IMG/VR virus record: IMGVR_UViG_3300038701_000849
Coordinates: 1-31,073 of that record
Strand: one strand, 5' to 3'
Length of the DNA: 31,073 bases
DNA from: a virus
Under the pieces are notes generated by a model, which was not told the DNA's origin, did no database searches, and saw only the letters and a program-made list of their open reading frames with translations. Of this stretch, positions 5,715-7,362 are shown in pieces (positions within the stretch are counted from its first letter, which is position 1; each line of letters opens with the position of its first letter). Made by a program: the position numbers and the translations under genes.

Positions 5715-5875
5715 TGGCTACTGCTAAAGAAATCGAACGTGTCATTTTGAAAGTCGCTGGTAACCCTTCGGCGGGTGCGATTAAGTCTTTGGCTCCGGTG
5801 TGGGCTGAGGAAATCGCGAAACTGGACGAGCCGAAGGTTAAGCGCGCCACGGTTGCGCCGGAAGAAACCCGATGA
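5714..5875 (+). CDS. Small basic/acidic protein, unknown
   Basis: A 53-residue protein starting on TAATG, the protease stop overlap. It is a soluble, mixed-charge, probably helical protein. The first 35 residues (KEIERVILKVAGNPSAGAI and onward) look like a compact helical unit; small proteins of this style occur between protease and capsid genes in other actinophages. No motif supports a function. Tight coupling on both sides supports it being translated. Confidence 0.6.
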   Translation: MATAKEIERVILKVAGNPSAGAIKSLAPVWAEEIAKLDEPKVKRATVAPEETR

Positions 5876-6018
5876 GCCCGTGGGGGTTTCTAGGTTGGGC
5901 TGTTGCGGTGGCTGTGTCGCTGATTGTTGTGGCGTTTGCGATTGCGGTGGTCATTGTGCTTGTCCGTCATTTGGCGGGTAAGGCGACTAGGACTCGTCGG
6001 ACTGTAGACTCTCAGTAG
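5872..6018 (+). CDS. Small single-pass membrane protein
   Basis: A 48-residue protein with one long hydrophobic helix (about residues 6-31) followed by a basic tail (RHLAGKATRTRRT), so the C-terminus is predicted cytoplasmic. The ATG overlaps the previous stop (ATGA), with GGAAG about 8 nt upstream. The TAG stop ends at 6018, one base before the first nucleotide of the tRNA-like RNA at 6020. Function unknown. Confidence 0.6.
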   Translation: MSPWGFLGWAVAVAVSLIVVAFAIAVVIVLVRHLAGKATRTRRTVDSQ

Positions 6019-6019
6019 C

Positions 6020-6100
6020 GGGGCCGGAAGGTTTCGACAGCTAGGAAGGCCACCCGTGGAGCCTAGCTGGACCGGGTTTCGATTACCCGCGGTTCCACTA
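6020..6100 (+). ncRNA. Mini-tmRNA-like tRNA-like RNA
   Basis: The 81 bases fold as a tmRNA tRNA-like domain. The acceptor stem is 7 bp (6020-6026 with 6090-6096), including G·U at pairs 3 and 4; G3·U70 is the alanyl-tRNA synthetase determinant of tmRNA. The T arm is perfect: CGGGT (6073-6077), loop TTCGATT (6078-6084), ACCCG (6085-6089), immediately abutting the acceptor strand. A stemless D-like loop carries GGTTTCGAC (6030-6038), and GGAC precedes the T arm, both as I remember them from actinobacterial tmRNA. An 8-bp helix (6038-6045 with 6062-6069) replaces the whole messenger/pseudoknot part. The 3' end is A73 then CTA instead of CCA. No degradation-tag frame is present. Confidence 0.75.
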
Positions 6101-6118
6101 GAGTGCATGCTCTGTTTT
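6099..6118 (+). terminator. Weak hairpin plus T4 run after the tRNA-like RNA
   Basis: Bases 6099-6104 pair with 6109-6114 (six pairs, two of them G·U) around a GCAT loop, followed by TTTT at 6115-6118. This is short for an intrinsic terminator and could instead be a trailer hairpin that positions 3' processing of the tRNA-like RNA, whose last three bases it overlaps. Confidence 0.35.
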
Positions 6119-6210
6119 AGACTTATATGAGCGGGTGAGCGTTAGCGCCCTCGTGAGGTTCAGCGTAAGCGCGGCCACCACACATATACGTTTATTAGGA
6201 AGGGCATTTC
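6118..6210 (+). promoter_or_regulatory. Cloverleaf-like leader of the major capsid mRNA
   Basis: Outer helix TATATG (6124-6129)/CATATA (6183-6188), then GGTG (6134-6137)/CACC (6176-6179), enclose three small hairpins: GCG-TTAG-CGC (6139-6148), CCT-CGTG-AGG (6149-6158 region) and GCG-TAAG-CGC (6163-6172). The two GCG hairpins are near copies. The capsid ribosome-binding site AGGAAGGG (6197-6204) lies just outside. A TAGACT hexamer at 6118-6123 could be a -10 element, but I see no good -35. This may stabilise or regulate the very abundant capsid mRNA. Confidence 0.5.
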
Positions 6211-7362
6211 ATGTCTGAGTTCATTAAGGCTCAGCAGGAAGTTCGCGCCAACTTGGTTAGCCAAATCCAGGATTCACTGGATGCTGCCGAGGAACGTGGC
6301 GGGCTTGACGCTGAAACCACCGAAAAGATTGACCGCATCGAGGCTGACATTCGTAAAGCCGACGAGGCGATCGCTGTTGCACAACGCAACGAAGAGCGTA
6401 AGCACGAGGCTTCATTGGCCGCTCGCGGTTTTGTTGTTGCTGAGGAAGAGCGCACCGATGCACACATGCTTCGCGAAATTGCGGAGACCCGTGGTGCTCA
6501 CACGTTCGAACGTCGCGACATTGTGTCGAGTGCTAACACTGTTCCCAAGTCGTTCTTCGACCAGGTGTTCGATGTTGCCCGTCTCGTTGGCCCCATGCTG
6601 GACGAGTCCGAGGTTATCAACACCACTAGCGGTGAAGACCTCACCATTCCGACCCTGACCGCTTACGGTACCGCTGCGCTTACTGCTGAAGGTTCCGCTA
6701 TCGGCGAGTCTGACCCCACCTACTCGAGCATCACACTTGGTGCGTACAAGTATGGTCAGCTCATCCAGGTGTCGCGTGAACTGGTCACCGACGCAGGATT
6801 CGACATTGAGTCGCACTTGGCAAACGCAGCCGGCAATGCCCTAGGTTATGCAACGAACGCCGCGTTGACCACGGGTACTGGTTCGAACCAGCCCAACGGA
6901 ATCGTGACCGCCGCTTCAACCGGTGTGACCGGTACCGCTACCGACGGTGTATTCACTGCCGACGAACTGATCGAACTCCAGTACACCCTCGATGGAATGG
7001 CACGCCGCCTGCCTGGCGTGAAGTACATGGCTAACGGTTCGACCATTGGCAAAATGCGCACACTCAAGGATGACAACGGAAACTACCTCTACCAGGTCAA
7101 CGTTGGTCAGCCTGACGCATTCGCTGGATACGAAGTGGTTGAGAACCCGCACATGGCCTCGACCGGTACTGCCGGCGAACTGCCCGTCGCGTTCGGACAC
7201 ATTCCGTCCTACAAGGTCCGCATGGCTGGTGGCCTCGATGTTGCCAGCTCCGGGGACTACGCATTCAACCAGGACCTGATTACTTACCGGTTCCTGATGC
7301 GTCTCGATGGTGACCTTACCCACACGTCACACATCAAACTGTTCGAAAGCGTCACCGCTTAA
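6211..7362 (+). CDS. Major capsid protein (HK97 fold)
   Basis: This protein forms the icosahedral head shell. It has 383 residues: an N-terminal, charged, coiled-coil delta/scaffolding region (about 1-75), then the HK97 body with typical stretches such as TIPTLT, GAYKYGQLIQVSRELV near 190-205 and an NPHMASTGTAGELPVAFGHI segment near 310-330. The delta region is expected to be removed by the upstream protease. The ATG follows AGGAAGGGCATTTC. Codon use is noticeably enriched in C-ending codons compared with its neighbours, as expected for a very highly expressed gene. A strong terminator follows. Confidence 0.95.
   Translation: MSEFIKAQQEVRANLVSQIQDSLDAAEERGGLDAETTEKIDRIEADIRKADEAIAVAQRNEERKHEASLAARGFVVAEEERTDAHMLREIAETRGAHTFERRDIVSSANTVPKSFFDQVFDVARLVGPMLDESEVINTTSGEDLTIPTLTAYGTAALTAEGSAIGESDPTYSSITLGAYKYGQLIQVSRELVTDAGFDIESHLANAAGNALGYATNAALTTGTGSNQPNGIVTAASTGVTGTATDGVFTADELIELQYTLDGMARRLPGVKYMANGSTIGKMRTLKDDNGNYLYQVNVGQPDAFAGYEVVENPHMASTGTAGELPVAFGHIPSYKVRMAGGLDVASSGDYAFNQDLITYRFLMRLDGDLTHTSHIKLFESVTA

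Follow-up and report, generated by a model that had tools for sequence, protein, structure and literature searches.

A phage tmRNA gene without a coding sequence belongs to a large family of mini-tmRNAs with strict alanine identity

Transfer-messenger RNAs (tmRNAs) reduced to their tRNA-like domain (TLD), with no coding sequence (CDS) for a tag peptide, are already known as a kind, although the 2025 tmRNA database holds just nine 'standard, no CDS' sequences overall and counts CDS-less sequences mostly as permuted (PMC11915505). Mycobacteriophage DS6A is listed in two later articles (PMC4131195, PMC11915505), after Mao et al. 2009, as having a TLD-only tmRNA, and TLDs without a tag frame are likewise summarized for jakobid mitochondria (Jacob et al. 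2004, cited in PMC11915505) and, at ~65 bp, for Mallomonadaceae plastids. Here we describe an 81-base element at positions 6020-6100 (+ strand) of IMG/VR virus record IMGVR_UViG_3300038701_000849, the whole 31,073-base stretch of which was analysed and is hereafter called the window. The element is a CDS-less (TLD-only) tmRNA gene, or mini-tmRNA, with a short P2 hairpin closing the TLD. The first-pass annotation of this DNA knew of no described phage RNA of this form, a claim that gives way to DS6A as reported in those articles; what is new is the size of the family and the strictness of its alanine identity.

The likeness to DS6A lies in the TLD-only form as relayed in those articles, and the two cases differ in that the window phage belongs with Pontimonas phage phiPsal1 by type and its element falls within a much larger family. 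The organellar messenger-less tmRNAs are believed to work in the rescue system of the organelle itself, whereas the window element lies in a phage genome and has the standard gene order. Phages Bxz1, Wildcat, the Streptomyces Annadreamy type and Melnitz (permuted) carry ssrA genes with the same TLD as the window's, but full-length phage tmRNAs encode an annotated tag peptide and a long messenger part, and the window element has neither. With bacterial ssrA (RF00023) it shares the acceptor G3·U70, A73, the D-loop GGTTTCGAC, GGAC, the T arm and the base of P2, while lacking resume codon, tag frame and pseudoknots (81 nt versus ~370). No account of a phage family turned up in a literature search on phage or mini tmRNA, from which most subscription journals were absent.

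When scanned against all Rfam families with cmscan, positions 6020-6100 matched RF00023 from end to end (model positions 1-374, 55.7 bits against a gathering threshold of 47, E 1.5e-20), and the messenger part was aligned as a deletion, which bears out the first-pass proposal of a tmRNA TLD without its messenger. The custom covariance model R1 scored the element at 92.1 bits (E 4e-21), the window sequence being itself a member of the R1 training set, and ARAGORN reported neither a tRNA nor a tmRNA over the window. The 7-bp acceptor, T arm with TTCGATT loop, stemless D-like loop and GGAC, along with the other described features, were all found where they had first been placed. The acceptor 5' strand GGGGCCG (6020-6026, with G3 at 6022) forms seven pairs with 6090-6096, its 3' strand CGGTTCC (U70 at 6094) and discriminator A73 (6097) occupy 6090-6097, and G3·U70 is thus 6022·6094. 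The D-like stemless loop GGTTTCGAC (6030-6038), a tmRNA signature also found in relatives, leads into the P2 5' strand CAGCTAGG (6038-6045), which forms 8 bp with the 3' strand CCTAGCTG (6062-6069). An A-rich internal loop separates P2 from an inner hairpin, CCA-CCCG-TGG (6050-6059, stem 6050-6052/6057-6059), and GGAC (6069-6072), a second tmRNA signature that is invariant in alignments A1 and A2 and was also a search seed, precedes the T arm CGGGT-TTCGATT-ACCCG (6073-6089). At the position of the CCA tail the window element reads CTA (6098-6100), and no CCA is encoded.

The inner hairpin stands in place of the roughly 270-300 nt of messenger and pseudoknots; such a replacement had been foreseen, as a single helix, and it proved instead to consist of the 8-bp P2, the A-rich internal loop and the small inner hairpin. 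In the RF00023 alignment the resume codon and tag reading frame are absent, as are pseudoknots PK1-PK4, for which there is no room beside the one small hairpin, and the element has no D stem or anticodon arm. A permuted two-piece tmRNA is ruled out by the gene order (5' acceptor, D, P2, T, 3' acceptor) and by a score of just 13 bits for RF04321. At 81 nt and in a phage genome, the element holds little beyond the TLD, as a TLD-only phage tmRNA does.

The minimum-energy fold of the element comprises the acceptor, a P2-like helix with the inner hairpin, and the T arm; however, its z of only -1.6 in GC-rich sequence is weak and was not taken as proof, so comparative evidence was needed. Without guidance, RNAalifold recovered acceptor, P2 and T arm from 31 diverged relatives, and compensatory changes occur in 16 of the 20 pairs: four of seven in the acceptor, seven of eight in P2 and all five in the T arm, with 100% of cells paired in both acceptor and T arm. 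The covariance-model search with a check for compensatory changes, suggested at first pass, was carried through, and with the inner hairpin included (two of three pairs compensated, 90.3% of cells paired), 96.2% of cells pair and both sides change in 18 of 23 pairs. The covariation score of 0.724 compares with a shuffled mean of 0.172 and with 0.13 or less for slid pairings, and was matched by no shuffle. Among 100 sequences aligned with the model, 97.4% of cells pair and the score is 0.771, this alignment being fitted to the model. The common plan runs from the acceptor through GGTTTCGAC, a P2 of ~8 bp and an A-rich internal loop to a small hairpin, then GGAC and the T arm; the small hairpin is frequently CCG-CNNG-CGG, with CNNG loops in most relatives. 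On comparative sequence grounds, the relatives prove the fold of the element.

To delimit the family, IMG/VR was searched with a pattern of D-loop, a middle of 20-49 bases, GGAC and T loop, a broad scan being replaced by narrower ones that returned 68, 21, 40 and 101 contigs (at least 230 contigs), and the variant type with GGATTCGAC added 26 further IMG/VR contigs. A filter requiring a 7-base acceptor with at least six pairs and a T stem with at least four retained 268 elements, representing 174 distinct sequences, in which the D-like loop is GGTTTCGAC in 155 and GGATTCGAC in 17. Conservation of the D-loop, GGAC and T loop is partly imposed, because the search patterns fix those motifs, whereas P2, the inner hairpin, A73 and G3·U70 were left free and the letters of acceptor and T stem were constrained solely to pair. 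The phages with the element range from ~31 to >130 kb, and the named isolates infect actinobacterial hosts. The element is present but unannotated inside tRNA arrays of Streptomyces phages LuckySocke and BRock, and in a more degenerate form, again unannotated and inside tRNA arrays, in Streptomyces phages Riptide and Tomas. In the Riptide and Tomas copies (L241:2477-2556 and L252:1478-1558), the acceptor with G3·U70, the P2 hairpin and the T arm persist while GGTTTCGAC and GGAC are gone; these copies are either decaying or altered in their SmpB contact. In BLAST searches, GiJojo, pSt2308 and Alone3 matched across 80-99% of the query, with Naboo more partial, as Tomas was.

A similar pattern run over ~85,000 bacterial and archaeal species genomes matched 16 contigs, five of them true copies; matches in haloarchaea, Nitrospira and Synechococcus genomes failed the acceptor test and were rejected. 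Each of the five genomes with a mini copy holds a separate full-length host tmRNA of 367-398 nt and different sequence. Across named-phage and genome loci, true members scored 55-91 bits with R1 and the next best at most 35. Matches of 20-35 bits in Achromobacter JWDelta, Ruegeria RpAliso, Cellulophaga phi40:1, Vibrio D239 and VCPH, E. coli Av-05 and others were tRNAs or tRNA-like and were not counted. The tRNA-like elements of Vibrio phage D239 (L249:1471-1541) and Cellulophaga phi40:1 (L246:1460-1537) combine a G3·U70-like acceptor and T arm without a normal cloverleaf and are not clearly members. Full tmRNAs called by ARAGORN at eight loci were set aside for the mini form, which fits better; the four calls inspected end at the mini element, with implausible 5' parts and 'Tag not identified'. 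HNH endonuclease genes, as open reading frames (ORFs) 5' of the elements (alignment A4), adjoin at least 9 of 74 scanned elements, and may indicate a mobile mode of spread. In a Cellulosimicrobium genome (G001:C17; L206, L376), a mini-tmRNA at 128568-128649 has tRNA genes for neighbours, is 28.5 kb away from the host ssrA (157140-157506), and is possibly an integrated element attached at ssrA.

The chief identity element recognized by alanyl-tRNA synthetase (AlaRS) is G3·U70, and SmpB binds the region around the D-loop and T-arm elbow. The first-pass claim that the determinants of alanylation are kept extends well beyond the window, as G3·U70 occurs in 172 and A73 in 173 of the 174 distinct elements; the apparent G3·U70 exceptions, L103 and L171, seem to reflect faulty registration or a damaged acceptor and not true substitution. 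By comparison, each of the acceptor pairs 4-69, 5-68 and 6-67 shows five or more standard pair types. Since G3·U70 and A73 are near-invariant while neighbouring pairs vary, selection for charging is favoured over simple inheritance, and alanine acceptance is very likely under selection. Only 45 of the 174 elements encode CCA, so that in most it must be added after 3' trimming. The distance from the D-like loop to GGAC is 25-38 nt throughout, which excludes a tag frame and pseudoknots.

The best reading of these features, and in our judgement a probable one, is that the mini-tmRNA acts as an alanine-charged competitor of host trans-translation. The element would be transcribed during infection to give a discrete, stable RNA of ~80 nt, trimmed in tRNA-like fashion and provided with CCA, which host AlaRS would charge with alanine. 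Host SmpB and EF-Tu would bind the charged RNA (the SmpB would be the host's, as no SmpB gene was found in the window), and it would compete with the host's own tmRNA both for SmpB and for stalled ribosomes. Lacking a resume codon, it would either block tagging or take the nascent chain untagged. The likely net effect would be that host trans-translation is blunted or diverted, and that truncated phage proteins and mRNAs escape the mark for destruction.

The phage-centred distribution (at least 230 plus 26 IMG/VR contigs against five genome copies) counts towards competition with the host system. A discrete RNA is favoured by the tRNA-array location in Streptomyces phages and by an excess of -10-like boxes: of 130 non-redundant flanks, 27 have a TANNNT that ends 6-9 nt ahead of G1, against a shuffle mean of 7.9 and maximum of 18 (1000 shuffles). 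As summarized in two articles, a TLD-only molecule resembling that of DS6A is a strong inhibitor of tmRNA in E. coli, perhaps by titrating SmpB (Mao 2009, via PMC4131195, PMC11915505), which by analogy lends experimental precedent to the decoy role raised at first pass. In phage Wildcat, the full-length tmRNA is expressed more highly than any other lytic gene (PMC7474061). Several points weigh against a charged competitor. The inhibition by the DS6A-like molecule is described as independent of chargeability (PMC4131195), so titration does not fully explain the strict G3·U70; that a phage gains from weakened ribosome rescue is assumed; and the element is dispensable, since close kin lack it, such as L003, whose capsid is 98% identical to that of the window phage. 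Nonetheless, the strictness of G3·U70 suggests that charging matters in nature, favouring a charged competitor or a peptide acceptor over a mere sponge.

A peptide acceptor need not be an inhibitor, and the mini-tmRNA could instead perform tag-less rescue, in which the charged RNA and host SmpB accept the peptide and free the stalled ribosome untagged. The alanine identity kept in 172 of 174 elements speaks for this, given that a peptide acceptor needs it and a pure SmpB sponge does not, and mitochondrial tmRNAs that lack the messenger are found together with SmpB and are believed still to assist with incomplete mRNAs (PMC11915505). We nevertheless consider tag-less rescue unlikely, as a route for release of the peptidyl-RNA is not known and the sole experiment on a phage-type TLD-only RNA, in the published summaries, shows inhibition of tmRNA. 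An ordinary or degenerate tRNA-Ala misread as tmRNA would share the T arm, 7-bp acceptor and alanine determinants, yet the missing D stem and anticodon arm, the lack of any ARAGORN tRNA, the preference of Rfam for tmRNA over weaker overlapping matches of the same clan, and the gap in R1 scores between true members and next best matches make that reading barely credible.

The place of the element in the window raised the prospect of a role in cis, with processing at the element, or a cap-like stability, freeing or protecting the capsid transcript. In its favour, 48 of the 56 loci of the window's capsid clade keep the element 104-133 nt from the start codon of the capsid gene, down to 43% capsid identity. 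However, 212 of the 268 elements have no relative of the window capsid in their locus (56 do), 47 lie within 1.5 kb of canonical tRNAs, some being inside tRNA arrays, and a processing mark has no need of G3·U70, GGTTTCGAC or GGAC. Scans of neighbours against PHROG found a major head protein 3' of 15 of 64 elements, with other functions scattered (helicase, repressor, HNH endonuclease, terminase, tail). Between element and capsid gene, moreover, a conserved -10-like box stands in phages with and without the element (TAGACT at 6118-6123, + strand, in the window; TAGACT, TAAACT or TAGAAT in relatives), a candidate for the capsid gene's own promoter, and a subset of elements has a -10 box right at the element. 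As most elements have no related capsid neighbour, a cis role cannot explain the family; both first-pass suggestions of this kind, a processing mark and a capsid-mRNA cap, lose their footing, and we regard a cis role as quite improbable even here. Less probable still is an integration scar, in which a phage attaching at the tmRNA gene would have taken up a fragment of host ssrA. Such an origin is made conceivable by the frequency with which ssrA serves temperate phages as an attachment site (an example is in PMC10865867) and by the 28.5-kb proximity in Cellulosimicrobium, but both TLD halves and the common closing hairpin covary, as an attP core comprising the 3' end only would not; the mini copy differs from the host ssrA in the five genomes; and no tyrosine integrase was found in the window, while phiPsal1 was judged lytic, with signs of integration absent (PMC6106888).

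The window is related to Pontimonas phage phiPsal1 (MG835450, 31,069 bp; 90.8% identical over the searched region), a trace contig obtained when Pontimonas salivibrio, a Microbacteriaceae actinobacterium, was sequenced (PMC6106888); in phiPsal1 the corresponding place is unannotated and intergenic. Upstream in the window, a small head-operon ORF (5872-6018, +; homologue phiPsal1_008, hypothetical protein) ends with TAG at 6016-6018, leaving, as first noted, a single base before the element starts at 6020. The sequence TAGACT at 6005-6010 (+) is a candidate -10 box of the mini-tmRNA's own promoter: TAGACT, TAAACT or TATCCT stands at the matching place in L001/L002, L004/L195 and phiPsal1 and is missing from L003, which has no element. 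A sigma-70 consensus scan found no promoter, the -35 being weak, and the claim for the -10 box depends on these relatives. From its sequence context, the element looks like an insertion ahead of the capsid promoter that forms its own transcription unit or is cut out of the head transcript.

Downstream lies the major capsid protein gene (6211-7362, +; HK97 fold, with scaffold or propeptide), annotated as capsid in phiPsal1 and with a homologue in L001 that matches the PHROG major head protein (E 7.7e-68). Among IMG/VR capsid relatives, the element stands upstream of the capsid gene in L001, L002, L004, L005, L006, L066-L068 and L080, is cut off in L064 and lies further away in L010. Comparison of L003:878-1009 with window positions 6005-6211 shows the element and its -10 box cleanly missing, with the capsid promoter region and 5' untranslated region (UTR) nearly unchanged, and the two form a natural presence/absence pair. 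The capsid 5' UTR (6128-6205) contains two imperfect repeats, GAGCGTTAGCGCC and CAGCGTAAGCGCGG, kept with sequence drift in distant capsid relatives; as they occur in relatives with and without the mini-tmRNA, they are probably a separate cis element of the capsid mRNA.

Overall, the 174 distinct sequences turn the DS6A curiosity into a recurrent phage strategy, and the near-absolute G3·U70 and A73 yield a testable prediction beyond a simple SmpB sponge, namely that charging matters. Annotation tools miss the element (ARAGORN is silent on it and the Streptomyces copies are unannotated), and phage annotation could include it straight away. More tentatively, as a possibility we hold to be short of probable, many unrelated tailed phages may encode an RNA antagonist or re-router of host trans-translation that depends on alanine charging and that, together with SmpB and EF-Tu, gains entry to stalled ribosomes and accepts the chain without tagging it. 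If true, this would represent a general RNA-based takeover of ribosome quality control, beyond the curiosity of one phage.
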